Origin: Denitrovibrio acetiphilus DSM 12809
Lineage (GTDB): Bacteria; Chrysiogenota; Deferribacteres; Deferribacterales; Geovibrionaceae
Length of the DNA stretch: 64,000 nt
Reading direction: 5' to 3'
NCBI RefSeq assembly: GCF_000025725.1
Contig: NC_013943.1
Location: forward strand, 3,038,001 to 3,102,000
Under the pieces are notes generated by a model. It was not told where the DNA came from. It ran no database searches and was given only the letters and a program-made list of their open reading frames with translations. The position numbers were made by a program, and so were the translations under genes. Shown here piece after piece: positions 2,489 to 22,344 of the stretch; position 1 is the first letter of the stretch, and every line of letters starts with the position of its first letter.

Positions 2489-4570
2489 ATGAACAACAAC
2501 GATATGCAGGATCTTGTACAGGATTTTATTCTGGAAACTGAAGAAATCATAGAAGCTCTTGATCACGACCTTGTTGAACTTGAAACACGTAAAAACGATC
2601 TTGATCTGCTTAATAAAATATTCAGAGGCGCACATACCATGAAAGGTGCGTCGTCATTTCTGGGTTTCGACAAAATGAGCGGGGTCACCCACCACGCAGA
2701 AGAAATCCTTAACAAACTTAGAAAAAATGAAATTTCCGTCACACCAGGCATTATGGATATTCTGCTTGAGTTCGTAGACATAACAAAAACCATAATCGTT
2801 GACATCAAAAACGGTACAGACGTTGCAGATGTTACTGACCTTATCAACAGGCTCAAACTTGCAAATGAAGGAAAGCTCCCCGGAGCGTCAGATGCAACAA
2901 GATCCGGAGCTCCCGAGGCACCGCAGAAAAATGTTGAGCAGGTGAAAAAAGCAGCGATGTCCATTGAACAGACTATCCGTGTGGATGTTTCCAGACTGGA
3001 CTCTCTGATGAACCTTGTTGGTGAACTCGTTCTCTCCCGTAACCGTATCGGGCAGATCTCCGGAGATCTCGAAAAGAAATTCGAAGGGGAATTCCTCATT
3101 GAGCAACTCATGGAAACCACATCGCAAATAGGACTCATCACGACTGAACTACAGCTTGCTGTAATGAAAACAAGAATGGTTCCTATCGGCAAAGTCTTCA
3201 ATAAGTTCCCAAGAATGGTTCGTGACCTCTGCCGTGATATGGGCAAAGATGTTGATCTTGTCATATCAGGGGAAGAGACAGAACTTGATAAATCTGTTGT
3301 CGAAGAGATAGGGGATCCGCTTATCCACATGATCAGAAACTCTGTGGATCACGGTGTTGAAGTACCTGAAATCAGACGTAAAAGAGGCAAACCTGACAAG
3401 GGGATTGTTAACCTCTCCGCATATCACGAAGGGAACCACATTGTCGTTGAGATCAAAGATGACGGTGCAGGGATGGATGCAGAGGTTCTCAAAGCGAAGG
3501 CCGTTGAAAAGGGCGTCATCACTATTGATGAGGCTAAGAACCTTGACAATGAATCAGCTTACGGTCTCGTTTTTAAACCCGGTTTCTCCACCGCAGCCCA
3601 GATCACAGACGTTTCCGGACGTGGCGTGGGCATGGATGTGGTTAAAACTAACATAGAAAAACTTAACGGTATCATCAACATTGAGTCAGAGTTAGGACAC
3701 GGGACACGTTTCCGTCTGAAACTTCCTCTCACACTCGCAATTATACAAGCGCTGCTTGTTGATGTCTCCGGAGAAATATTTGCTATCCCTCTTGTTTCAG
3801 TTATCGAAACAGTACGCATTAAAGAGACTGAAATTCACAGCTTTGAAGGGCGCGAGGTTCTTAAACTAAGAGACTCCGTTCTCTCGCTTATCAGACTTGA
3901 CGAAATATACGAACTTCAGGAATCACTCAATGATGACATATACGTTGTTGTTGTGGGGCTTGCTGAAAAGAGACTTGGATTTGTTGTTAATAAACTTGTA
4001 GGACAAGAAGAAATTGTCATCAAATCCCTAGGCGACTACCTCAGCGGCAATGAAGGCATCGCAGGCGCAACCATTATGGGTGACGGACGCGTTAGACTTA
4101 TCATAGACGTTGCCGGCGTTATGGAGATAGCTACTAAAATGCCGCGCAGGTTCAGGAAGAAAAAAACTGAATCAACAACAACCAAAAGAAACGATAAAAT
4201 AACAGCTCTTATAGTGGACGACTCTGCCACTGACAGAAAAATAATAAACAGGCTTCTGACATCCACCGGATGGATAGAAAGCAAAGAGGTAACCAGCGGT
4301 AAAGACCTTATCAAAGTTTTTGAAAAGGTTGATCCGGATATAATTATCACAGACATAATGATGCCTGAAATGGATGGGTATGAAGTAGCCAAAGCCCTAA
4401 GAGAAAAGGGTTTTGAAAAACCTATCATAGCTATCTCCGGTCGGTCTGAAATATCCGAGAGGAAAAAAATCTCTGCTGCAGGGATCGACGCCTTTCTGCT
4501 GAAACCTGTCAACCTGCAGTCTATGCTGGATAAAATTGATGAGCTTATGGCGAATTCTCGTAATAAGTAG
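2489..4570 (+). CDS. cheA: Chemotaxis histidine kinase CheA with C-terminal receiver domain
   Basis: A 693-residue hybrid CheA. In order: HPt domain with phospho-His H49 (RGAHTMKGAS), a linker, dimerisation helices (~160-235), GHKL ATPase with N-box (HMIRNSVDHGVE, ~276), DDGAGMD and GRGVGMD motifs, a CheW-like domain (~415-545), and a receiver (~570-690) with phospho-acceptor D622 in IITDIMMPEMDG. It phosphorylates CheY in response to chemoreceptors. The fused receiver may act as a phosphate sink or adaptation module; this is inferred from other CheA-Y fusions. The ATG has a strong GGAGG site. The 3' end overlaps the next small gene by 32 nt. Confidence 0.95.
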   Translation: MNNNDMQDLVQDFILETEEIIEALDHDLVELETRKNDLDLLNKIFRGAHTMKGASSFLGFDKMSGVTHHAEEILNKLRKNEISVTPGIMDILLEFVDITKTIIVDIKNGTDVADVTDLINRLKLANEGKLPGASDATRSGAPEAPQKNVEQVKKAAMSIEQTIRVDVSRLDSLMNLVGELVLSRNRIGQISGDLEKKFEGEFLIEQLMETTSQIGLITTELQLAVMKTRMVPIGKVFNKFPRMVRDLCRDMGKDVDLVISGEETELDKSVVEEIGDPLIHMIRNSVDHGVEVPEIRRKRGKPDKGIVNLSAYHEGNHIVVEIKDDGAGMDAEVLKAKAVEKGVITIDEAKNLDNESAYGLVFKPGFSTAAQITDVSGRGVGMDVVKTNIEKLNGIINIESELGHGTRFRLKLPLTLAIIQALLVDVSGEIFAIPLVSVIETVRIKETEIHSFEGREVLKLRDSVLSLIRLDEIYELQESLNDDIYVVVVGLAEKRLGFVVNKLVGQEEIVIKSLGDYLSGNEGIAGATIMGDGRVRLIIDVAGVMEIATKMPRRFRKKKTESTTTKRNDKITALIVDDSATDRKIINRLLTSTGWIESKEVTSGKDLIKVFEKVDPDIIITDIMMPEMDGYEVAKALREKGFEKPIIAISGRSEISERKKISAAGIDAFLLKPVNLQSMLDKIDELMANSRNK

Positions 4571-4859
4571 CGCATTAACCCTTATATCAATCTCAGCATT
4601 TGCCGATATATATATTTACGAGGTGGTCACTGAAACCAAACGGTTTCAAACCGCCTCAAAAATGAAACCGAACACTTTTCTCAAATACCAGGGCGGAAGC
4701 GATGTTGTCTACGAACTTATCGTTGTTGATAAAATAAAAGGTGATAACTTTGAAGAAGCAGCCAAACAATACAGGCTCGATGAAAACAACTACCGTGCCC
4801 TCTCTCCTAAGGCTTCTAAGCGCCCTGATAATTTTCGCCGCTTTATCTGGTGGCGCTAG
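4539..4859 (+). CDS. Small secreted protein of unknown function
   Basis: A 106-residue product that starts inside the end of cheA (ATG 4539, other frame). The N-terminus is a convincing signal peptide (SLWRILVISSALTLISISAFA, cleavage after AFA), followed by DIYIYEVVTETKRF and a soluble region with no family that I recognise. Its mature style (short beta-strand start, then an EEAAKQYRL-like helix) resembles the start of the next protein, so the two may be related secreted products. Its last 80 nt overlap the OmpA-like gene in another frame, which makes the tail (after ~residue 80) less trustworthy as conserved sequence. Confidence 0.55.
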   Translation: MSLWRILVISSALTLISISAFADIYIYEVVTETKRFQTASKMKPNTFLKYQGGSDVVYELIVVDKIKGDNFEEAAKQYRLDENNYRALSPKASKRPDNFRRFIWWR

Positions 4860-5670
4860 CTACGCAGCGGAAAGGCAAAAATATAAGATCATCGTAACCC
4901 GCCCCGATACAGATGTCACAACCCAGCTCCGTGTATATGCAGAAAACGAAGAAGAAGCACGTGAAAATGTTGCTCTAAACGGATGGCAGATCCTTTCAAT
5001 CGAATTATATCAACCGCCTACAGCTGTTTCAGGTGAGATGAGAGGCTTAACGCCGACATCTGACGGAGAATATTCAATTACAATTACAAAAGTCGGGGAA
5101 GGCTCTGTTAAACCATATGGCACGACTAATGTACCTGCAAACGGCAGCCTAATGATCGAAATGACACCTGATCCGTGCGAAAAGTTAGGAAGCCTAATTT
5201 ATAATGGTCAGAAGCTCACCCCGGAAGGCAACTCACACACTATAGAAAATATAGAAAAAGAAGGTTCTGTGGTGGTGGTTTTTGAAGCTAACGGAACAGA
5301 ATGTGCAGATAATGGTATACTCAGTGCAAATCTTAATGAGCAGGGGGCTATTTACTTTGCTCTTGGCGAATTTCGTAAGGAATTAACTGACAAAGAAATA
5401 AATATTATAAGCAATGCTAACAATGCAAAAAAGTATGTAATAATCGGACATACTGACGATGTGCGTGTTGTACCGAATACAGAATATGCTGACAACTTTG
5501 AACTTTCAGCTAAAAGGGCTGCATTTTTCTTAAACAAACTTACTGAAGCAGGGATTCCGGCAGAAAATGTTCAGACATTAGGGCTCGGCCCCGCTTTTCC
5601 GGCAGCACCAAACAAAAAAAACGGACAACCTCTTAACCGGCGGGCTATACTCTATGAACGAATCAGATAA
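4780..5670 (+). CDS. OmpA-family peptidoglycan-binding protein
   Basis: A 296-residue exported protein. The ATG at 4780 is preferred because it gives a classical signal peptide (LLRLLSALIIFAALSGGASYA, cleavage before AER); an earlier GTG at 4741 would add 13 poor residues. Residues ~20-60 form a small alpha/beta module rich in Glu. The C-terminal ~105 residues form an OmpA/MotB-like domain with IIGHTDD, NFELSAKRA and a final LNRRAILYE, the typical peptidoglycan-contact pattern. It probably anchors something to the cell wall in the periplasm. Location after cheA suggests a motility link, but it is not MotB: it has no inner-membrane helix other than the signal peptide. Confidence 0.8.
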   Translation: MKTTTVPSLLRLLSALIIFAALSGGASYAAERQKYKIIVTRPDTDVTTQLRVYAENEEEARENVALNGWQILSIELYQPPTAVSGEMRGLTPTSDGEYSITITKVGEGSVKPYGTTNVPANGSLMIEMTPDPCEKLGSLIYNGQKLTPEGNSHTIENIEKEGSVVVVFEANGTECADNGILSANLNEQGAIYFALGEFRKELTDKEINIISNANNAKKYVIIGHTDDVRVVPNTEYADNFELSAKRAAFFLNKLTEAGIPAENVQTLGLGPAFPAAPNKKNGQPLNRRAILYERIR

Positions 5671-6631
5671 CAAAATAACCTATCAGGATTTCTTCAATAT
5701 AAAGCTAAAAAAGTTTTACGAATACGTCACTGATGTCATGCATGACTTTTCATATGCAATACACAGAAACCTTAAAGAAGACGAAAATAAAAGACGTGTT
5801 GAAATATGGCGTTCATCAAAAAATGAAAACGTTAACGCACTAATCTGGCTGGAAATAGTTAAAGGCGGAGCAGAGATTGATCATTACATAGCTACTGATG
5901 TTCTCCGCACTATGAACGAAGAGGGTATGCTGAAACTCTTCTTCTTCACCAATGCAGACATTTCTGCGGACATGAAGGATGTTCTGGACGGGAAAGATCA
6001 CTACGTTTTCACACCTAAAGATATCATAGAGACTATCGAAGCCCTTGAGCTTAAAAAGCTTTCAGGCTCTGGCAAGAAACGTAAAAATGTCAAAGTTCCG
6101 TCTGGAAGGCTTGTGATAAGAAACTATCTAAAGAACCACCAGCTGAAAGGAAAAAAAGTTTTTGTAAATACGAGCACACTGTCAGATCTGGCAGAAAACT
6201 ATCTGCACCTCGCCAGAGAAACCTTTAATGAAGTTGACAGGATTGATGATATCAACAACCTTACACCAGAAGTGAAGGACAGATTTCGTAATCTTCAGAC
6301 AAAACTTCTTCCGGAACTGAGAAAAACGCTTTATTTCAGATTCACTGAACGTTTCAGCTATCTGTCGCAAACCATATACAACATAGTCCAGAATCTTGTT
6401 ATGTACATTGGATCACTAATTGAAATGGAATCAGAAGAGCAGATGAACAAAGCAAGGGATGTTGTCGAAAATGAGCTGGATGTTCTTCGTAATATTGACG
6501 AAAAACTTGAAGAGTTTTATACAGAACAAATGAAAAAGACTGTAAGACTCAGCTACAATCTACTCTACATTTCAATAGCTATCATATCATTTATGATCGT
6601 ATTTTATCTCATCATGGTAAAATCAAAGTAA
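5654..6631 (+). CDS. Tail-anchored membrane protein with possible Mrr-like N-terminal fold
   Basis: A 325-residue protein with no signal peptide and a single hydrophobic C-terminal helix (~299-321, LLYISIAIISFMIVFYLIMV), so it is probably tail-anchored with the bulk in the cytoplasm. Residues ~45-135 (ALIWLEIVKGG, then LKLFFFTNADIS, then HYVFTPKDIIETIEAL) follow the strand-helix order of Mrr-type restriction-endonuclease folds, where the ExK-like LEIVK would be the active-site strand; this is a weak visual match only. Residues ~185-295 look helical or coiled coil. It overlaps the OmpA gene by 17 nt and closes this sub-cluster. Function unknown. Confidence 0.7.
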   Translation: MNESDNKITYQDFFNIKLKKFYEYVTDVMHDFSYAIHRNLKEDENKRRVEIWRSSKNENVNALIWLEIVKGGAEIDHYIATDVLRTMNEEGMLKLFFFTNADISADMKDVLDGKDHYVFTPKDIIETIEALELKKLSGSGKKRKNVKVPSGRLVIRNYLKNHQLKGKKVFVNTSTLSDLAENYLHLARETFNEVDRIDDINNLTPEVKDRFRNLQTKLLPELRKTLYFRFTERFSYLSQTIYNIVQNLVMYIGSLIEMESEEQMNKARDVVENELDVLRNIDEKLEEFYTEQMKKTVRLSYNLLYISIAIISFMIVFYLIMVKSK

Positions 6632-6775
6632 GGTTTTATCAAAGCTTAATTTTTTATTCCTCCAAAGCGTTTGATTTTTACCCAGCAATGAATTAAACTT
6701 ACTGTAACATATAGTCTTTAAAAACAAGGCTGTATAATGCTTTCATTAAAATACATAACCGGAACGTGACAGACA

Positions 6776-8350
6776 ATGGAATATAGCAGCGAAATATTAA
6801 ATTTTATCAGCGAGATAGTGCTGGTTGTAAATGATAAATTTCAGATACAATACTGCAGTCCGCAGGTAAAGCAGCTTACAGGCAAGGGTCCGGAAAAAAT
6901 GACAGGCAAGAAATGTCATATGGTCATGTTTAACAAAATGGAACCTTGTAAGGACTGTCAGCTCGCTAAACTTAAAGACAATAGGATTCCTCTGGATATC
7001 GAGCATGACACTATCACACACCGCGGTTTCCGGAAACTTTTCTCAGCTAAATTCATCAAGCTTGAAGATAATGCATATGCTGAAATCCTCAGCGACATAA
7101 CCAGTACAAAAAAACTTATAGATAAACTCACCCGCCACTCGAAAGAACTTAAGGCATCAAACGTCATACTGAACCTTAAGCGGAAGGAAACCGAGAAAGA
7201 ACACAGATTCATACTTCGAACAATAAACTCTCTCAATGACGGTGTTATGGTCGTTAACCCTGACCTTACTATAAATGTTTCAAACTCCAGCCTCATTGAT
7301 ATGTGCAGTCTGGAGGGGAAAAAGACTCCGGAGATGAGATGCTACGAAGTTTACGGCTATACAGAACAGTGTAAAGACTGTCCGCTGCTTGACCCGAAAA
7401 ACACACGAGCCTTCCGGGAAGCACATGGTAAGAAACTCACTGTCACAATGAATCATTTCGACAGATATATTGTGGAAAGTCTCCGTGACACCACAAAAGA
7501 GCTTAAACTTATAGATGAAATAAAAAACCAGCAGTCTGTACTGCATGAGAAACAAAGACAGATGAGCCTTCTCAACGAAGACCTACTCAGAATGAATGAT
7601 AAGCTCAAAGTTGCACACAAAATAATTGACGAAGAGCTGACACAGGTTGGTCAGATACAGGCAAGCCTTCTGCCGGAAACACTACCGCAGATAGAGGGCT
7701 ATGACTTCGGCGCTTTCTATACCCCTGCTGAACACGCAGGCGGTGATTATTATGACTGTATAGAAATGAGCAACGGATACTGGGGGCTCGGCGTGGCAGA
7801 TGTTTCAGGTCACGGTATACCTGCATCAGTCATAATGGCTATAACCCGTGCTATAATGCGTTCATACACTTACGACGTAATATCCTCATCAGAAGCCGTC
7901 GCCATGGTGAACGAGATATTATGTGACAACATACACACAAATGACTTTGTTACAATGTTTTACACTGTTTTCAATTCCAAAAACGGAACCCTGAACTATG
8001 CAAGCGCAGGGCACAACCCCTTACTTTTTTATGACAAGTCTGAGATGCTTGTTAAGAAAATTTCGTGTCACGGAATGTTTCTTGGGGCGTTTGATATGGT
8101 AGACTATGAAGAAGGGGAACTGGAAATTGACTCCGGTGACATTGTTTTCCTATATACTGACGGACTTAACGAAGCGATGAACCGCAGCAGAGAGCAGTAC
8201 GGATATGATCAGCTCATCTCAAAGATAATGATGTTTGCGAGTCTCCCCGTCAGTGAAATGATTGAGAACATTATGGAAGATGTCCGGAACTTTACACAGG
8301 GACACCCTTTCGAAGACGATATTACGATATTGGCTTTCAAAAAACTCTAA
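6776..8350 (+). CDS. PAS-PAS-PP2C serine phosphatase (RsbU/SpoIIE type)
   Basis: A 524-residue cytoplasmic protein. Two PAS domains (~8-115 and ~145-245) each carry a three-cysteine pattern: C-x10-C-x2-C (CHMVMFNKMEPCKDC) and C-x9-C-x2-C (CYEVYGYTEQCKDC), seen in some redox or metal-linked PAS sensors. A coiled coil (~245-300) leads to a SpoIIE/PP2C phosphatase domain (~300-522) with metal-binding motifs AGGDYYD, GVADVSGHG, FLYTDGLNEA and FEDDITIL. Such enzymes dephosphorylate STAS anti-anti-sigma proteins, and the next gene encodes one. A TATAAT at 6733-6738 in the 144-bp upstream gap could be part of its promoter. Confidence 0.9.
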   Translation: MEYSSEILNFISEIVLVVNDKFQIQYCSPQVKQLTGKGPEKMTGKKCHMVMFNKMEPCKDCQLAKLKDNRIPLDIEHDTITHRGFRKLFSAKFIKLEDNAYAEILSDITSTKKLIDKLTRHSKELKASNVILNLKRKETEKEHRFILRTINSLNDGVMVVNPDLTINVSNSSLIDMCSLEGKKTPEMRCYEVYGYTEQCKDCPLLDPKNTRAFREAHGKKLTVTMNHFDRYIVESLRDTTKELKLIDEIKNQQSVLHEKQRQMSLLNEDLLRMNDKLKVAHKIIDEELTQVGQIQASLLPETLPQIEGYDFGAFYTPAEHAGGDYYDCIEMSNGYWGLGVADVSGHGIPASVIMAITRAIMRSYTYDVISSSEAVAMVNEILCDNIHTNDFVTMFYTVFNSKNGTLNYASAGHNPLLFYDKSEMLVKKISCHGMFLGAFDMVDYEEGELEIDSGDIVFLYTDGLNEAMNRSREQYGYDQLISKIMMFASLPVSEMIENIMEDVRNFTQGHPFEDDITILAFKKL

Positions 8351-8363
8351 GGAGGATCTTATT

Positions 8364-8684
8364 ATGTTTGAAGTACAGGACAAAGGGGACAAAAAGCTTG
8401 TTTTTGTCAAAGGGGAAGTTAACGCTCAGACAGGCAGCGAACTGAAAAAAAACATTCTCGATATTTTCAACAGTGCAAATACCGTTGTGCTCTCTTTCAA
8501 AGGTGTTGTCTATATGAACAGTTCTGGTCTCAGAGAGATAATCGACCTTTTGAAGAACGCTAACAAAACCAAAAAGACTCTCATGCTCTGTGAAATGACT
8601 CCTGATATCAGAGAGATGTTTACTTTCACAGGTCTGGATAAAGTTTTCAAAATATATGATACGCAAGCTCAAGCTCTGGGGTAA
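8364..8684 (+). CDS. STAS-domain anti-sigma factor antagonist
   Basis: A 106-residue single STAS domain of the SpoIIAA/RsbV family. The ATG at 8364 follows a perfect AGGAGG (8350-8355); upstream codons belong to the phosphatase 3' end. The phospho-site loop reads YMNSSGLREI, so S53 matches the regulatory Ser58 of SpoIIAA while Asn replaces the preceding Asp. Expected role: substrate of the PP2C phosphatase just upstream and partner of an anti-sigma-type kinase, which is not present in this window. The spacing of 13 nt after the phosphatase supports an operon. Confidence 0.9.
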   Translation: MFEVQDKGDKKLVFVKGEVNAQTGSELKKNILDIFNSANTVVLSFKGVVYMNSSGLREIIDLLKNANKTKKTLMLCEMTPDIREMFTFTGLDKVFKIYDTQAQALG

Positions 8685-8687
8685 ATT

Positions 8688-10106
8688 ATGTCAGTAGAAT
8701 TCGCCAAAGACGGTGACGTTCTCAAAATAATTGTGGAACAGGATACAAGCGGCAAAGACCTCGAAGATGCTTCCAGAAGAATTCTGGACGAAAAAGGGGT
8801 TTCTAAAGTCAGCCTTGATCTTAAGAAATGCTTCTACATCCAGAGTAAGGCTCTGGCGGCTCTTATTGCGTTTAAAAAAAACTCAGCTAAGATAGGCGCC
8901 GAATTTACGGTAACTAATGTATGTGAGAACGTCTTTCAGGTTCTTGAAATGGCAAACCTCACTATGTATTTCACAATAGAAGAGGACTTCAGCACCTATA
9001 CTCCCGATGAACTTATTGAAAAGTTTTTCGAAGCAGATTACGCAGACAGAGTTTCAGACTATATCGTTCAGTACATGAATGACGATATCCGCAACAAACT
9101 TTACGAAATACTGGACTCTGAAGATCCTACTCTGAAATATTACGCAATACTAACTTTAGGCAGAGCACACGATTACAGCTCTGAGGACAAAATCAAAGCA
9201 GCTCTGGAAAGCGACACTCCGCAGGTTGCAAAAGCAGCCGTGCTTGTGCTGGGGTGGTTTGGTGATACAGACAGCAAAGAGAAAATGTACGAGTTCCTCG
9301 ACTGTGATGTGGAAGAGCTCAGAGAGGCCGCCGCCGCATCTATCGCTCTGCTCTCTGATGACTCTGATGCTGAGAGGCTCGGAAAGCTGCTTCAAAGTGA
9401 CGATCCTTCCGTAAGGACAGTCACGGTGCAGGCACTCACTCTCATTAACGATACTAAGGCTTTTAACCTTCTGGTGGACAGAGTCGATAAAGAAGAAAAC
9501 GAAGCAGCAAGTGCGGCACTTATCAGAGCCATATCATCCTTCAACAAAGAGGGTGTTTCTGATATCCTCATCAAAGCTCTCGGAAGCTCTTTTATCAAAA
9601 CCAGAGAAGCAGCAGCAGGCGGTCTCGCCAAAATCAAAGCCAAAGATAAGCTCAGTGAAATACTGGAAAGAGTCACTGACAACGACTCATGGGTTGGTTA
9701 CTTTGCCGTAAAGGCTTGTGGTGAGATATGCACCCCTGTCGAAGCTGAAAAACTGAAAGAAAGCTTCGGGCATGTTGATGAAAATGTCAAGCTTGCCATA
9801 GTGGAAGCACTCGGTAAAATTAATGCGGACTTCAGCGATTTTTATATGACTATTCTGGAAGACGAAAACGAAGATATCCGCAAAGAGGTCTTAGCTGCCC
9901 TTGCTAACGACAACAAACAGCTCGCTGCTGAAGCGGCGGGGACGCTGTTCATCGCTGACCAAAGCTGGATTGTCCGCTACAAGGCTCTGGAGATACTTAT
10001 TAACCTTAAGCCAGAAGGCTACCTTGATCTTTTAAAGAAAGGGCTGGATGAGGACGATAATAAGTATGTGAAAGAAAAAATACAGTCTGTTTTGGATGCG
10101 ATATGA
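8688..10106 (+). CDS. STAS domain fused to HEAT repeats
   Basis: A 472-residue protein. Residues 1-105 form a STAS-like domain, but the usual DSSGL loop is YIQSKALAAL, so the phospho-site is changed. From ~135 to the end there are about ten HEAT-like helical pairs of ~31 residues (for example DPTLKYYAILTLGRAHDYS, DPSVRTVTVQALTLI, DENVKLAIVEALGKI), which form a protein-binding solenoid. It starts 3 nt after the small STAS gene and overlaps cheR by 4 nt. It may link the partner-switching pair to the chemotaxis apparatus as a scaffold; that is inference from position only. Confidence 0.85.
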   Translation: MSVEFAKDGDVLKIIVEQDTSGKDLEDASRRILDEKGVSKVSLDLKKCFYIQSKALAALIAFKKNSAKIGAEFTVTNVCENVFQVLEMANLTMYFTIEEDFSTYTPDELIEKFFEADYADRVSDYIVQYMNDDIRNKLYEILDSEDPTLKYYAILTLGRAHDYSSEDKIKAALESDTPQVAKAAVLVLGWFGDTDSKEKMYEFLDCDVEELREAAAASIALLSDDSDAERLGKLLQSDDPSVRTVTVQALTLINDTKAFNLLVDRVDKEENEAASAALIRAISSFNKEGVSDILIKALGSSFIKTREAAAGGLAKIKAKDKLSEILERVTDNDSWVGYFAVKACGEICTPVEAEKLKESFGHVDENVKLAIVEALGKINADFSDFYMTILEDENEDIRKEVLAALANDNKQLAAEAAGTLFIADQSWIVRYKALEILINLKPEGYLDLLKKGLDEDDNKYVKEKIQSVLDAI

Positions 10107-10936
10107 TAAGTACAGGTACAATAAAAATTAAAGATGACGAGTTTGTAGAGCTGAAAGATATCATCTACAAAAATGCAGCCATCGCCTTTGCTGACAGCAA
10201 AAAGTATCTGATTGAGAACAGACTCTCCAAAAGGCTTCAGGAACTTAACTTCTCCAGCTTTAAGGATTATATTTATTACCTTAAATACGATCCGAAAAAG
10301 CGTGAGGAGATGGAGGTTCTGCTAAATCAGGTAACGATAAATGAGACCTACTTTCTGCGTGAAAGAGCTCAGATGGATCACATGATTAAAAACATCATCC
10401 CTGACCTCTTGGCAAAAGGGAAGAAGTCTTTAAGAATATGGTCTGCTGCATGTTCTTCAGGTGAGGAGCCGTATTCCATTGCGATCCTCCTTAACGAAGC
10501 AGGTCTGTTTAATAAAATGAATATTGAAATACTTGCCACAGACATCAATACTGAGGTGCTGGGGATTGCTCAGAAAGGTCTCTACAGAACGATATCTTTC
10601 AGGGGTGTTCCGCCTGCTGTACAGCAGAAGTATTTCACAAAAGACGGCTTCACCTTTAAAATTGACCCTATGATCATGAGCAAAATCAAGTTCTTTCAGG
10701 GGAACCTGCTCAGTCCGATGATAGGCTCAAAAGTAGGCAGACTGGATGTTATATTCTGTAGAAATGTGCTCATATATTTCGACATTCCTGCAAAGCAGAA
10801 GGTTATCGAAACTTTTCACAAAGCTCTCGGTGTACCAGGTGCACTTTATCTGGGACACTCTGAGACACTGAATAAGATATCCGACAGCTTTAAAATGGAA
10901 AACTTCGGGGGCGGTATAATCTACAGGAAAGGTTAG
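10103..10936 (+). CDS. cheR: Chemoreceptor methyltransferase CheR
   Basis: A 277-residue SAM-dependent methyltransferase that methylates glutamates of chemoreceptors for adaptation. The N-terminal helical domain (~10-90, ending LLNQVTINETYFLRE) precedes the SAM-binding domain with RIWSAACSSGEEPYSIA, LATDIN and DVIFCRNVLIYFD, all typical of CheR. The ATG overlaps the STAS-HEAT stop (ATGA), so it is translationally coupled. No cheB is seen in the window. Confidence 0.95.
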   Translation: MISTGTIKIKDDEFVELKDIIYKNAAIAFADSKKYLIENRLSKRLQELNFSSFKDYIYYLKYDPKKREEMEVLLNQVTINETYFLRERAQMDHMIKNIIPDLLAKGKKSLRIWSAACSSGEEPYSIAILLNEAGLFNKMNIEILATDINTEVLGIAQKGLYRTISFRGVPPAVQQKYFTKDGFTFKIDPMIMSKIKFFQGNLLSPMIGSKVGRLDVIFCRNVLIYFDIPAKQKVIETFHKALGVPGALYLGHSETLNKISDSFKMENFGGGIIYRKG

Positions 10937-11005
10937 GGATAATACCATGGGATAGCGCCAACTGAATTCCGGCAGGTTTTAAGCCACTCAGCCTCTACAG
11001 AAAAA

Positions 11006-11251
11006 GTGGCGGATGTGCACGACAAAGCGGCTGATAACAAACAGGTCGCAATCGCACAGGAAATGAAAGAGCAGGCAGACAAACGCTCTAAAAGTGTGTC
11101 CGAAACCGAAAACTCCCAGGGTAAAACCATTAACAGCGATGAAAAACGCCGTAGAGAACGTGAAGAGCAGAAGAAAAAAAGAGAACGAAATAAAGAAATT
11201 GCCCGGCGTCTCGAAAGGGATACCGGGCATATTATAGATCTGGAAGCATAA
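11006..11251 (+). CDS. Small charged protein of flagellar clusters; 5' end unclear
   Basis: A Lys/Arg/Glu-rich protein of at least 81 residues ending GHIIDLEA, a layout seen in small uncharacterised proteins of flagellar operons. The first standard start in frame is GTG 11006, but the frame stays open upstream to 10943 and would encode an extra GIAPTEFRQVLSHSASTEKV, which looks like genuine protein. A well-placed AGGG (10935-10938) and ATG (10947) sit just before that segment, but in a frame that stops after two codons (ATG GGA TAG). A single-base loss near codon 2, or a non-standard start, would explain this. Confidence 0.6.
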   Translation: MADVHDKAADNKQVAIAQEMKEQADKRSKSVSETENSQGKTINSDEKRRREREEQKKKRERNKEIARRLERDTGHIIDLEA

Positions 11252-12532: not shown

Positions 12533-13708
12533 ATGAACATCTTCTGGCCTGACGGTCTCCAGAAACTTGCAGCCAGCGGAGAAATCAGCTTCAAAGATGG
12601 TGAACGGCTGAACCTTAATATCGTGCGCAAGATGGAAAACGGCATGTTTCTCATCAATCTCAAAGGGAAATCCTTTACAGCTCAACTCCCTGCCGAACCG
12701 GAAGGCAAAACTGTCCGTGCTGAGGTTGTTAAAGCAGACAGCGGATCCCTGACACTGCGTATTATCCCTAAAACTGAAAACAGCACGAACCCAATGCGCA
12801 TTATAACAACAACTCAATCAACGCCTTCTGCCGCAACTGCGCCAACAGCAACAGCCCCCCAGGGTGAGCCGGCAAAGCTTATCCTGCAGATACCTGCGGG
12901 TACAATAGAAGCAAACCCCGGCGAAAAGATCGAAATACAGATTCTTAAAATTCTTAATAACGGCAATTCCCTTGTGGCAGTTAAAAATAATCTTTTTGAG
13001 GTCAAGCTCGATGCGAATATGCAGCAGCTTCTGAAAAATATTACTGCGGAAGTTACAAAAATAGATGGTAAAGAGATAGAGCTTACGGTTGAAAAAACTC
13101 CTGTGCAGAATCTGAATGTAAACTATGTCAAGCAGGAGGTCGGAACATTCGACCTGGCAAAACTTATGAAGGCATTCGGAAAATTTCAGAGCGTAGACGT
13201 ACAGAATATCACCCCGGATACACTGAAGCAGGCTATTAAAAATTCCGGTCTGTTTATGGAAAACAAGCTTCTGAATGATGACAGCATGGCTGGTGACGAA
13301 AAAATCAGAGCTTATGTCAATTCTGACAATACTGCAAAAGACGGCATAACCAAAATGCAGGTTTCAAATATGCTCCTTGCCGGCGGTCTATTGGCTTTCC
13401 TCAAAACAGGGGATGAGAATATTGATGATACATATGTCAGGCTTAAACGTGGGAAAAATGGTCAGAATACTCTCTACGTCTCCACAAAATTCTCACAGCT
13501 CGGTGATACTTTCATAATCATAAGAAATAACAGAAATACCCACGATGTCATGGTAAAAACAGAAAAAGACATTTCTGATGAGCTAAAAGACGTGAATATT
13601 GAAAACACGCGCATACATTGGGTAAAATTTAATAAAAAAGATCTGGAAACTATGGACGTTAAGAAGGATATTGTGTTTAATATGGGAAATTTTGAGGTGA
13701 TTACCTGA
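12533..13708 (+). CDS. FliK-like flagellar protein (tentative)
   Basis: A 391-residue protein with no signal peptide. Residues ~85-110 are a Thr/Ala/Pro-rich linker (TTTQSTPSAATAPTATAP). The region DTLKQAIKNSGLFMENKLL (~228-246) is of the type found in FliK-related hook-length proteins, and the C-terminal ~120 residues (NTLYVSTKFSQLG, then HDVMVKTEKDI, then IHWVKFNKKDL) could be a diverged hook-length control domain. Position within the flagellar operon, 1 nt after the preceding gene and overlapping the next by one base, supports a flagellar role. The assignment is weak. Confidence 0.5.
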   Translation: MNIFWPDGLQKLAASGEISFKDGERLNLNIVRKMENGMFLINLKGKSFTAQLPAEPEGKTVRAEVVKADSGSLTLRIIPKTENSTNPMRIITTTQSTPSAATAPTATAPQGEPAKLILQIPAGTIEANPGEKIEIQILKILNNGNSLVAVKNNLFEVKLDANMQQLLKNITAEVTKIDGKEIELTVEKTPVQNLNVNYVKQEVGTFDLAKLMKAFGKFQSVDVQNITPDTLKQAIKNSGLFMENKLLNDDSMAGDEKIRAYVNSDNTAKDGITKMQVSNMLLAGGLLAFLKTGDENIDDTYVRLKRGKNGQNTLYVSTKFSQLGDTFIIIRNNRNTHDVMVKTEKDISDELKDVNIENTRIHWVKFNKKDLETMDVKKDIVFNMGNFEVIT

Positions 13709-14907
13709 TGCATATTGACGCAGAAGCGATTAAACAATTTATATTTAATACGTCTGAATATTCTATAACTTTCTTTGCAGCTTTTATCAGCTATTTTATA
13801 GTCAAAAACGTACTGATAAGGGTTATAATTTCTTTCCTGCAAAGGACTAAGAACACTATAGATGACCTTCTTATAGACTCAAAGCTTCTGAATCATCTCG
13901 CCTTTATAGCGCCGGCTATTGTGCTCCTGTATACTAAAGAGATAATCAATATGCCACCAGAGCTTACACAGATTATTTCCGCATATATCGGACTGAATAT
14001 AACTTTTTTCCTCGTAAGACTTTTTACACTTATCAACAGTATTTACAATACCTTCAATATTTCTACCACACGCCCAATCAAAGGCTATCTTCAGCTTGCG
14101 CAGGTGATTATAGGCTTCATGGGTGTTGTCGCATCTGTATATATCGCAGTTGGTAAATCTCCTCTTGGGTTCCTGAGCGGACTCGGCGCTATGACCGCTA
14201 TCCTCATGCTGATATTCCGCGATACTATCCTGTCCTTCATAGCAGGCATGCAGATAATGTTCAACGACCTGATCCATAAAGGAGACTGGATAGAGGTTCC
14301 CCGTTTCGGTGCGGATGGTGATGTTATCGACATAGCACTATATAACGTTACAGTTCAGAACTTTGATAAAACTATAGTATATATCCCTACCAGTAAACTC
14401 ATGGACGGCTCATTCAAGAACTGGCGGGGGATGAAAGAAGCCGGAGGCAGACGCATCAAAAGAGCTATAAACATCGACCAGTCTTCTGTACGGTTTATCA
14501 GTAAAGACGACATAGACAGGTACAGAAAGTTTAAGGTTCTGAAAGAATATTTTGACAAAAAGCTACAAGAAGATATAGACATAGAAGGTACAGACATAAA
14601 TAGAAGAAAGCTGACAAATATAGGAACTTTCCGAGCTTATATTATAAACTACCTAAGGAACCACCCGCATATAAGACAGGATTTAACTTTTCTCGTAAGG
14701 CAGCTTCCACCAAGCCCGGACGGACTGCCCATTGAGATTTATGTTTTCACCGACGACACAGACTGGATTAGATATGAAGGGATACAGTCAGATATATTTG
14801 ATCACCTGTTAGCTGCTGTACGTGAATTTGACCTTGCAGTTTTTCAGCATCCTGCGGGGAGTGACTTTAAGAAACTGGTTCAAGTTCCTGATAATTATTC
14901 CGATTAG
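13708..14907 (+). CDS. MscS-family mechanosensitive channel (YbdG-like)
   Basis: A 399-residue inner-membrane protein with about five N-terminal transmembrane helices, then the MscS pore and beta domain: SGLGAMTAILMLIFRDTILSF, FNDLIHKGDWIEVP, VTVQNFDKTIVYIPTSKL. The long soluble C-terminus (~250-399) with RQLPPSPDGLPIEIYVFT is typical of the YbdG/MscM subgroup, which opens on hypo-osmotic shock. It overlaps the FliK-like gene by one base, so it is co-transcribed with the motility operon although no motility role is known for the family. Confidence 0.9.
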   Translation: MHIDAEAIKQFIFNTSEYSITFFAAFISYFIVKNVLIRVIISFLQRTKNTIDDLLIDSKLLNHLAFIAPAIVLLYTKEIINMPPELTQIISAYIGLNITFFLVRLFTLINSIYNTFNISTTRPIKGYLQLAQVIIGFMGVVASVYIAVGKSPLGFLSGLGAMTAILMLIFRDTILSFIAGMQIMFNDLIHKGDWIEVPRFGADGDVIDIALYNVTVQNFDKTIVYIPTSKLMDGSFKNWRGMKEAGGRRIKRAINIDQSSVRFISKDDIDRYRKFKVLKEYFDKKLQEDIDIEGTDINRRKLTNIGTFRAYIINYLRNHPHIRQDLTFLVRQLPPSPDGLPIEIYVFTDDTDWIRYEGIQSDIFDHLLAAVREFDLAVFQHPAGSDFKKLVQVPDNYSD

Positions 14908-14936
14908 TAATTCTGAATATTTCTGGAGTGTAACAA

Positions 14937-16619
14937 ATGTTTGGCTCAAAAAAATTTACTGTCACAGTGACAGGCAGCAGTCATGTTCTCGAGGCTAAAA
15001 GCGGTACTAACCTTTACCACCTCTTGCGAGAACATGACCTCATAGATAAAAAGCTTTGCGATGGAAACGGGCAGTGCGGCAAGTGCAAAGTAAAGATTAA
15101 AGGTGTGTCTGTCAACAAACCTACTAAGAAAGAACGCCTTGTACTGGCTGAGGCAAGCCTTGATGCCGGAATGCGTTTAGCCTGTCAGTACGGTGTAAAA
15201 TCAAACATCACTGTGGACACTCAGGAAGCTGTTAAGTTTGAAAATGTCAATCCTGGGATAGTCAGTCTCAAGATTAAAAACAGTAATGGCGTTGTTGAGG
15301 AGAATGAATTCAAAAGTTTTCTCACAACAGACATGTTCATCAAGCAGGCAGAGAGAGATGACAAGAAACAAACTGATAGCAAAGAACCTGAAATTATCGA
15401 AGATTTCAGCGATGAAGTAATCGTTGATGATTTTGTATATGATGAAAGACCAATCGAAGAGATAGCCGGACACTCCCGTGATACTATCGAAATTAAAAAA
15501 TTCGAGGAGAATGAGCAGGAAGAGGATACCTCTTTCAGTAATGACGGTTTGTTATTTATCCAGCAGCCGGATGGAGTTCGTTACTACCACTACAGTGCCG
15601 GCATAGGGAATGTTGTTGATGACGGACATATTAAAACCTCTGAAAGACTCGAGAATATTCTTGAAGATCAGCTCATTTCTGATTTTATCCACAATAATGT
15701 TAAAGTTCTTGATATCGAACGTGTAATTGTGATCCTTGATAAGCCTTATTTTGAGGGCGAAGAGATGTTCGGGCTGGTTAAATATAAATCTATGAAGCTT
15801 GGAGATTTTCTTGTTGAGGTTCTTCAGCCGAGGGAAAACCACAGAGACCTGGTGCGCTTCATGCGGTTTGTCAACCAGACACCTGGGAAAAAGCTTCTTA
15901 TACCTCTTGATAATCTTGAAAAAGCGCATTTCATGGATGATGGTAATCTTCATGACATGTCTGCCGGCTTCATAGACTGCGATTCACTTTTCGGGATGAG
16001 TGAGTTTTACGGAAAAAATCCTATAGTTTCCATGAGTAAGGATCTTCTTGAAACAAAGCTCAAGGATGATTTTCACCTTCCTGACTCCATATCTTTTACT
16101 GTCTTTTTCAGAACTGCATCCCTTCTTATGAAAAACGGGCTTGCAGACCGCCGTCTCAACCTCTACGACAGGGCAGATGTTATGGACGACCTGCCGCTTG
16201 ACCTGACTGTAAAACTCGGCATCAAAGACGATGTAAAACGCTTTAATCTGTATCGTAAGCAGGGGGTTGATCTTTATATCGACCAGAATGCTTTGGACAG
16301 TCTCCACAGGCTGCGTATTTTCATTTACTCAGTCATTACCTATACAGAAAAGCGTTTCGGTCATATTGACGATGTGGTTTTTTATACGCTTACTAACAGT
16401 GACACACTTGCAGATGACCTTATATCTTTGTCTGCCATACCTAAAAAGTATGAAAAGAAGGTCAAAACATTTTACGGTGACCCGACAATGTATGCTGTGC
16501 AGTTTTTTCAGGAAAAGAATATTGAGATATACTTCAATAAGCGATTCGGGGAGCAAAACTTCATTAACCTTGATGAAGATGAGCTTTTTATTGAGACACA
16601 GCGGAATTCACAGTTTTAA
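14937..16619 (+). CDS. 2Fe-2S ferredoxin domain fused to large uncharacterised region
   Basis: A 560-residue protein. Residues 5-95 form a plant-type ferredoxin domain with cysteines C41-x5-C47-x2-C50-x32-C83 (LCDGNGQCGKCK, LACQYG), the arrangement seen at the N-terminus of corrinoid-activating RACo proteins. After an acidic linker (~130-205, including DFSDEVIVDDFVYDE) the remaining ~350 residues match no family that I recognise; the GTTTV-type ATPase start of RACo/DUF4445 is absent. The C-terminal part has alternating strands and helices and no membrane segment. A TGGAGTG site precedes the ATG. It ends the + strand motility block. Confidence 0.7.
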   Translation: MFGSKKFTVTVTGSSHVLEAKSGTNLYHLLREHDLIDKKLCDGNGQCGKCKVKIKGVSVNKPTKKERLVLAEASLDAGMRLACQYGVKSNITVDTQEAVKFENVNPGIVSLKIKNSNGVVEENEFKSFLTTDMFIKQAERDDKKQTDSKEPEIIEDFSDEVIVDDFVYDERPIEEIAGHSRDTIEIKKFEENEQEEDTSFSNDGLLFIQQPDGVRYYHYSAGIGNVVDDGHIKTSERLENILEDQLISDFIHNNVKVLDIERVIVILDKPYFEGEEMFGLVKYKSMKLGDFLVEVLQPRENHRDLVRFMRFVNQTPGKKLLIPLDNLEKAHFMDDGNLHDMSAGFIDCDSLFGMSEFYGKNPIVSMSKDLLETKLKDDFHLPDSISFTVFFRTASLLMKNGLADRRLNLYDRADVMDDLPLDLTVKLGIKDDVKRFNLYRKQGVDLYIDQNALDSLHRLRIFIYSVITYTEKRFGHIDDVVFYTLTNSDTLADDLISLSAIPKKYEKKVKTFYGDPTMYAVQFFQEKNIEIYFNKRFGEQNFINLDEDELFIETQRNSQF

Positions 16620-17847: not shown

Positions 17848-18953
17848 ATGCGTTTTAAGGCAGTAAAAGATGAAATCTACCCTTTCATACAGTTTGCTAA
17901 CAGCTTTACCAGCCCAAAGAACCTTAATACCGTTCTGCAAAACATACTGATAGATGCTGAACCTGACGGTGTGACCCTGCGTGCCACAGACATGCAGGTT
18001 GGTTTCTCAGGTAAAATTCCCGTCTCAGTAGAAGAGACCGGCACTGCCACAGTATCAGGCAAAAAACTTTTAGATATTATAAAAGAAATTCCTGACGGTT
18101 CTGTTATAGACTTCTCCTTTGACGGATCAAAGATTAATATAGATTCAGGTAAGTCAAGCTTCAAGCTTTCAACTATAAGTCACGAAATATTTCCGACAAT
18201 GGCTGAGATTACTCCAGAATATTATCTGAAAATTAAGTCTTCTATGCTTTATAACCTTTTAAAAAAGACAAGCTTTTGTATCTCCACAGATGCATCAAAG
18301 ATAGAATACACCGGCTCTCACATGGCGGTTTACGGAGATAAGCTTGAGATTTCAGCAGCAGACTTTCAGCGGATAGCTACAAGCAGTGTCAAGTTTGACG
18401 AAGAGTATTCAAATGAATTCATGATAAACATTCCACGAAAAACTGTTATGGAGCTTTTAAAGATTCTCGATGAAGACGAATATGTAGAGATCGAAACAGA
18501 CAGAAAGCAGATTATCTTCACCATTGGTCAGGTTAAAATTTTCAGCAAGCTGATAGAAAAATATATTAAAAGCATAACAAAGCTTTTTGCCAACGACCTT
18601 CCATTACAGGCTAAACTTAACAGAGCTGAGTTTCTCGACGTTATTAAGCGTGTTTCAGCTATCACAAGTGAGGTTACACACGGTGTAGTTCTTTCTTTTA
18701 AGCCTGGAACATTTACTGTTTACTCGCTTGAAACTGAATATGGAACAGGTCATGAATCTATAGATGATTTTGAATACAACGGAGAGCCTTTAGATATCAT
18801 CTTCAATGCAAAGCACGTTGCAGAAATGATTTCAAACATAGATACCGATTATTTTTACCTGCACATGGTGGGAGAGAGAAATCCTGCAGTGATCATTCCT
18901 GAAACAGGAGAATATAAATATCTTGTGGTACCTATCTCCATCAACAGGTACTG

Positions 18954-18954
<1 letters not shown>
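17848..18954 (+). CDS. dnaN: DNA polymerase III beta sliding clamp
   Basis: A 368-residue sliding clamp with the three repeated clamp domains. Recognisable parts are the N-terminal LRATDMQVGFSGKIPV segment, ISGKKLLDII-like VSGKKLLDIIKEIPDG and the C-terminal YLHMVGERNPAVIIPETGE...LVVPI. It encircles DNA and tethers polymerase III and other repair enzymes. Length is normal. AGAGG precedes the ATG and recF overlaps the stop by 1 nt, so this is the head of a dnaN-recF-gyrB-gyrA replication operon. Confidence 0.97.

Positions 18955-22344
<3,390 letters not shown>

Follow-up and report, generated by a model that had tools for sequence, protein, structure and literature searches.

A partner-switching gene set with cysteine-bearing PAS domains is conserved beside cheR in Denitrovibrio acetiphilus and its relatives

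Our study concerns a three-gene set of Denitrovibrio acetiphilus DSM 12809, a motile, obligate anaerobe (PMC3035293), which has components of a partner-switching module and lies directly ahead of the chemotaxis gene cheR. The DNA analyzed, referred to below as the window, is a stretch of 64,000 nucleotides (nt) covering positions 3,038,001-3,102,000 of contig NC_013943.1 (GCF_000025725.1), from a one-contig genome of 3,222,077 bp; coordinates are those of the whole window, with position 1 as its first letter, and the set is on the + strand. The first gene (6776..8350, +) encodes a 524-residue PAS-PAS-PP2C phosphatase of the SpoIIE/RsbU type (Pfam PAS_9, E 7e-9; SpoIIE, E 8e-47). It is followed by the gene for a STAS-only protein of the anti-sigma-factor-antagonist family (8364..8684, +; Pfam STAS, E 1e-15), whose phosphosite is Ser53 in N-S53-S-G, and by that for a 472-residue STAS-HEAT protein (8688..10106, +; HEAT_2, E 6e-44; STAS, E 1e-6), which overlaps by 4 nt with the gene for the CheR receptor methyltransferase (10103..10936, +; Pfam E 2e-54). 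Because the distances between these four genes are only 13, 3 and -4 nt, they are probably read as one transcript, and an initial annotation of this DNA, which described the set as sharing an operon with chemotaxis genes, is borne out. The same annotation placed the set between cheA and cheR; cheR does adjoin it, but cheA (2489..4570, +) lies further upstream, beyond a gap of 144 nt and two or three intervening genes.

We surveyed 50 genomes of the phylum; apart from the window, 48 loci belonging to 47 genomes were mapped for gene order. The order PP2C-STAS-STAS/HEAT-CheR on a single strand is seen in 37 mapped loci or, counting the window, in 38 of the 50 genomes, the outgroup family included. 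Two of the 37 each carry an in-frame stop in one gene (L050 in STAS-HEAT, L051 in PP2C); these, and a single stop in the G019 copy (L134) of the kinase gene discussed below, lie in Denitrovibrio metagenome-assembled genomes and may be assembly errors. Ten others of those mapped depart from the full order: contig ends truncate four (G031, G045, G046, G048), four are without STAS-HEAT, and two hold only STAS and STAS-HEAT (G015, G017). The four without STAS-HEAT are a single genus (G033-G036), the G033 locus also being cut, and no frame of more than 62 codons from start to stop was found between STAS and CheR (12863-13531) in L118, a locus of this genus. Two further genomes (G004, G005) have no gene of the set. 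The PP2C is matched at E <= 1e-20 in 47 of the 50 genomes, the match in G015 and G017 being a different, 1074-residue frame, and STAS-HEAT is matched in 43. Judged from the sequences, this conservation of order and residues across the phylum is more than chance. It supports the coupling of a partner-switching set to chemotaxis that the initial annotation had put forward, and the gene-order survey suggested there does not separate the module from che genes in all relatives.

Of the 44 PP2C-bearing loci, 36 have a same-strand cheA gene upstream; of the remaining eight, five are cut within 613 nt of PP2C and three are outgroup loci (L120-L122), in which no cheA was found in the 11 kb upstream of PP2C. 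Because cheR is still present in these outgroup loci, the set appears to be linked more firmly to CheR than to cheA. The supposed link to che genes thus holds for CheR, while cheA is not constant and STAS-HEAT is not obligate: the outgroup led us to reject cheA as the core link of the set, and the genus G033-G036, which keeps CheR, led us to reject STAS-HEAT as an obligate partner of CheR. Nineteen of the 45 CheR-bearing genomes have a single CheR match; wherever contig ends leave the set whole, that match is the CheR of the operon, which is thus the ordinary chemotaxis CheR of these genomes. L121 is the only outgroup locus whose genes were read one by one; there, fliD- and fliS-like frames stand ahead of PP2C and the set is placed among flagellar-type genes.

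Of the 39 genomes with a completeness of at least 90%, 36 carry both the module PP2C and a CheR and three carry neither, these three representing two separate lineages; co-occurrence was tallied by hand, with G046 scored PP2C-positive on a 34%-identical contig-end fragment. Genome searches matched no FliG, CheR or module PP2C in the Flexistipes-type genomes G015 and G017 (L123 and L124), which keep STAS-HEAT with its Ser53, a STAS protein reading D-K-E-G at the phosphosite, and the orphan kinase introduced below; G016 (L057), of the same genus, has the full set with S53 kept. Flexistipes sinusarabici is described as non-motile and as being without cheB, cheR, cheV and cheW (PMC3236037). In L123 two identical transposase-like genes (6479-7798 and 14749-16068) flank the STAS/STAS-HEAT remnant. 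The genomes G004 and G005 have FliG and a CheA-like kinase, but searches found in them neither CheR nor PP2C, STAS or the orphan kinase. At the level of these gene matches, the PP2C and the phosphorylatable STAS protein track CheR; STAS-HEAT does not.

The STAS protein scores 70.6 bits against the anti-sigma-factor-antagonist model TIGR00377 (cut-off 53.45) and belongs to that family, whereas the STAS-HEAT protein, at 31.8 bits, stays below the cut-off. Ser53 of the STAS protein is kept in 45 of 47 rows, reading N-S-S-G or N-S-A-G, and is missing only in L123 and L124 (32 of the 47 rows entered alignment A2; residue counts over all rows, here and below, include both L061 and L115, which share a contig). 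Because, among genomes with the STAS gene, S53 is gone only where the module PP2C is absent, this serine is likely the substrate of the phosphatase, as the initial annotation had supposed. In STAS-HEAT, Ser53 and Asp44 are kept in all 43 covering rows, and the position beside Ser53 takes 13 different residues in the 35 rows (of 44) that make up alignment A3. An AlphaFold model of this protein (mean predicted local distance difference test, pLDDT, 93.5) starts a helix of the STAS domain at residue 53, where SpoIIAA and RsbV carry their phosphoserine. The STAS-HEAT site reads N-S-S-G in the outgroup and Q-S-K in most other rows; given the outgroup, the Q-S-K form is probably derived. Generic repeat folds (HEAT, ARM and designed) make up the 50 best Foldseek matches of the STAS-HEAT model. 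A second STAS pair beside a motility-type gene occurs elsewhere in the same genome (L129:7706-9141; G000:C1:2007705-2009140), where a YcgR-like gene (PilZNR, PilZ) is followed by two STAS-only genes reading N-S-S-G and D-S-E-G.

The SpoIIE domain of the PP2C scores 160 bits against a curated cut-off of 25, which marks the protein as a SpoIIE/RsbU-type PPM phosphatase. The Asp residues of its GGD, DVSGHG, TDG and DD motifs, among which we take the metal ligands to be, are kept in every covering row (41-42 of 42, alignment A1), and the GHG is kept as well. There are 46 PP2C rows, from 45 loci and the window, and A1 took 42 of them, leaving out L051 for its in-frame stop, L115 as lying on the same contig as L061, and the fragments L125 and L131. 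The AlphaFold model has a mean pLDDT of 85 and a predicted template modeling score of 0.49, so that the placement of domains is uncertain; its best Foldseek matches are the bacterial PPM phosphatases RssB, SiaA and Rv1364c. The architecture was not found in plasmid records, of which 32 matched and one, 26% identical, spanned 80% or more of the query. A contig scan with the PP2C, reaching close relatives only, returned 12 loci, all of Deferribacterota type.

Each PAS domain of the phosphatase carries a cysteine triplet with the spacing given in the initial annotation, where the position of the STAS serine was also correctly stated. The triplet of PAS1, C47-x10-C58-x2-C61 (6914..6958, +), is kept in 43 of 43 covering rows, with its spacing unchanged in all 41 covering rows of A1. 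For the PAS2 triplet, C189-x9-C199-x2-C202 (7340..7381, +), all 45 rows retain C199 and C202 and 44 retain C189, the spacing being the same in 41 of 42 A1 rows and C-x10 in the other. The suggested check of cysteine conservation thus finds the triplets in every row but one, and that exception, L125, is a contig-end fragment. The surrounding PAS1 domain has a mean conservation of 0.49, and its only invariant residues are the start Met, the three cysteines and D107. These counts support strong selection on both triplets. When 1152 open frames of 200 residues or more, many of them overlapping and drawn from the loci rather than from all PAS proteins of the genomes, were scanned for the cysteine motif, it was confined to the module PP2Cs and two MsrA-like frames.

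It is conceivable, though in our view somewhat unlikely, that the triplets are structural zinc sites or thiol pairs and not sensors. Invariance alone cannot tell a sensor from a structural site, and each domain has three cysteines, unlike NreB-type PAS domains, which have four. A [4Fe-4S] cluster with a suggested signaling role in a group D hydrogenase was moreover reported to keep its redox state under H2 (PMC13104023). The model of the PP2C argues for a sensor: C47 and C189 each open a short helix, with C58 and C61 just ahead of the next helix and C199 and C202 in the loop that follows, a region that we take to be the cofactor side of the PAS fold, and the rest of PAS1 is hardly conserved around them.

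The initial annotation also noted that no anti-sigma kinase is nearby, and this holds for the 64-kb window, in which the sole HATPase_c_2 match at E <= 1 is that of CheA and no operon kinase of the RsbU-RsbV-RsbW kind was found. The stronger reading, that the set has no kinase, was rejected when a search of the genome with HATPase_c_2 returned an orphan RsbW/SpoIIAB-like gene. This 276-residue protein (G000:C1:915299-916108; L127:8300-9112) is the best match in the genome, with 64.5 bits against a cut-off of 27.4, and is encoded about 2.1 Mb from the set in contig numbering. Its N-box, G1 and G2 motifs read ExxxN..EHGN, DxGxGF and HGRGI, with key residues invariant in all six rows of alignment A4 (six of the 47 genomes with a match); it scores below the RsbW and SpoIIAB equivalog cut-offs. 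The gene was matched in 46 of the 50 genomes, near full length in 43 and as the C-terminal half only in three outgroup genomes; the search left G004, G005 and G047 without a match, and what it returned for G045 was weak and fell in a different frame. The only PP2C of G036 is that of the module, and this genome has two STAS proteins and a single orphan-kinase match, which by elimination makes the orphan kinase the natural partner. We infer that the orphan protein is a candidate kinase partner of the STAS protein.

The wider surroundings of the set are those of a motility block. Upstream lie two FliN-type genes, a CheY-like gene, cheZ and cheA (Pfam: Hpt, dimerisation, HATPase, CheW and receiver domains), then a short frame, an OmpA-domain gene and an unassigned one (4536-4859, 4741-5670 and 5654-6631), followed by the gap that separates them from PP2C (6632-6775). 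Predicted promoter sites number 18 against 10.3 in shuffled sequence, and terminator sites 8 against 4.2, about two standard deviations above in each case, which does not decide whether the transcript starts upstream of cheA. The gap that follows cheR (10937-11251) stays open over some 100 codons, its first Met coming about 40 codons in, and in L121 a 108-residue frame (15359-15685) occupies the matching place. Because genes for DnaN-, RecF- and GyrB-like proteins (17848-22344, judged from translations) lie 7 kb downstream of cheR, the motility block may be near the replication origin.

Our analysis suggests a dispersed circuit resembling RsbU-RsbV-RsbW, in which a phosphatase with cysteine-bearing PAS domains, a STAS phosphoswitch and a distant kinase serve chemotaxis, a reading that we hold with moderate confidence. 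The cysteine site in each PAS domain may bind metal or an iron-sulfur (Fe-S) cluster and would report the cytoplasmic state, whether redox, Fe-S or metal, so setting the activity of the phosphatase; both the ligand and the direction of the effect are our suppositions. The PP2C would then dephosphorylate Ser53 of the STAS protein, and perhaps Ser53 of STAS-HEAT, a step supported by comparison, and the orphan kinase at G000:C1:915299-916108, to judge from its motifs and co-occurrence, would rephosphorylate the STAS serine. A change in the phospho-state of the STAS protein could alter its binding partner and tune CheR-dependent adaptation or another chemotaxis or flagellar part; candidate targets are CheR or the motor, both suggested in the initial annotation, a receptor-array protein, or a flagellar sigma/anti-sigma pair. 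STAS-HEAT, a STAS switch on a protein-binding HEAT solenoid, may be an accessory output or a scaffold. In a bolder version, to which we give limited credence, Fe-S or thiol chemistry at the two PAS domains would set STAS serine phosphorylation, which would act as a second input, independent of CheA, for resetting the receptor methylation that depends on CheR; a phylum of anaerobic respirers would in this way match its chemotactic adaptation to the redox state of the cell, with STAS-HEAT as a phospho-gated scaffold.

Several observations weigh against the proposed circuit. Over all 50 genomes the PP2C and CheR are both found in 44 and neither in four; the other two (G031 and G048) are discordant, and in each of them the contig breaks off at the set. 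The joint losses amount to only two independent events, and G004 and G005 are small genomes of 1.3 Mb, 86% and 90% complete. STAS-HEAT does not follow CheR, being gone in G033-G036 and present in G015/G017, and the position of the set in the operon may reflect co-expression only. The kinase assignment has competitors of its own. The second STAS protein of G036, which by eye resembles the STAS gene beside the YcgR-like gene of the window's genome, is another possible client; G015 and G017, in which the STAS S53 is gone, still have the orphan kinase and hold two other DSSG STAS genes, so that this kinase may serve other STAS proteins. Rival kinases in the genome include two PP2C-HATPase fusions (39.6 and 37.5 bits; G000:C1:2689195-2690271 and 2114845-2115867), one such PP2C-HATPase_c_2 fusion carrying a receiver domain in an HsbR-like architecture (L004). 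The HATPase_c_2 cut-off is exceeded by no more than about 1 bit in four further proteins and is missed, at 19.3 bits, by a 169-residue frame at 1529305.

An alternative that we consider unlikely is that the set acts through a sigma/anti-sigma pair, in the manner of HsbA and FlgM, to control how flagellar or chemotaxis genes are expressed rather than how active CheR is, and that cheR is simply co-transcribed. Unphosphorylated HsbA of Pseudomonas aeruginosa binds FlgM (PMC6482189), the STAS protein passes the anti-sigma-factor-antagonist model, and the outgroup set of L121 stands among flagellar-type genes; however, no sigma or anti-sigma factor was found among the ten locus proteins scanned with Pfam, and the G004/G005 lineage, which has FliG and is without CheR, has also lost the set, which fits CheR better, although this is one lineage with small genomes. 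More improbable still is a general stress or redox pathway that has nothing specific to do with chemotaxis and owes its place in the operon to an accident of inheritance. STAS-HEAT and the orphan kinase do persist in Flexistipes-type genomes without FliG, and HEAT solenoids are generic binders, but genomes without CheR are also without the module PP2C and STAS S53, with two contig-end exceptions, and the gene order is kept in the outgroup although the upstream genes differ.

Partner switching is already known for sigma factors, biofilm formation and some motility systems. A phylum-wide and apparently ancestral copy beside cheR, with invariant cysteines as sensors, would add a serine-phosphorylation input to chemotaxis beside CheA, and the conserved set suggests that swimming behavior may be tied to internal chemistry. 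The natural losses, in the Flexistipes type, the small-genome family f9 and the genus without STAS-HEAT, together with a named kinase candidate, make this assignment testable.

No description of the PP2C-STAS-STAS/HEAT-CheR set was found in the open-access literature, judged from titles and the starts of abstracts; comparison with known systems nevertheless places its parts. An [4Fe-4S] PAS sensor of the NreB type in Staphylococcus (cited in PMC10468136) provides a precedent for a cysteine-ligated cluster in a PAS domain; the PAS domains described here have three conserved cysteines each, in C-x9/10-C-x2-C, as possible cluster ligands. In an AlphaFold2 model of RsbU-RsbV, the RsbV phosphosite S56 lies near the catalytic center of the phosphatase (PMC11418112). 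With the RsbU-RsbV-RsbW and SpoIIE-SpoIIAA-SpoIIAB systems of Bacillus subtilis the set shares a SpoIIE-family PP2C, a STAS protein with the canonical phosphoserine and a HATPase_c_2 kinase in the genome; it differs from them in having its kinase outside the operon, no sigma factor at the locus, a cysteine-bearing PAS pair as sensor, an additional STAS-HEAT protein and cheR in the operon. HsbR is a receiver-PP2C-HATPase fusion, whereas the PP2C of the set has PAS domains and, by Pfam, neither receiver nor HATPase, and is not a regulator of the HsbR-HsbA kind. Common to the proposed circuit and the HsbR-HsbA-FlgM/HsbD system of P. aeruginosa is partner switching that governs motility (PMC6482189).

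STAS-only proteins occur in motility or chemotaxis operons, in roles that are not established (review, PMC8256260). CheS of Sinorhizobium meliloti and Agrobacterium, is a STAS-only protein of the che cluster that binds CheA (review, PMC12654446), and the STAS protein of the set has a comparable che-cluster position in most loci; no PP2C or HEAT partner of CheS is named in the passages of that review that we considered, and the resemblance is one of position. Although HmpU-HmpV-HmpW of Nostoc punctiforme acts in hormogonium motility and polysaccharide rather than in flagellar chemotaxis, it shares with the circuit proposed here a motility switch, of unestablished target, composed of a phosphatase, a STAS protein and a kinase (PMC8256260).

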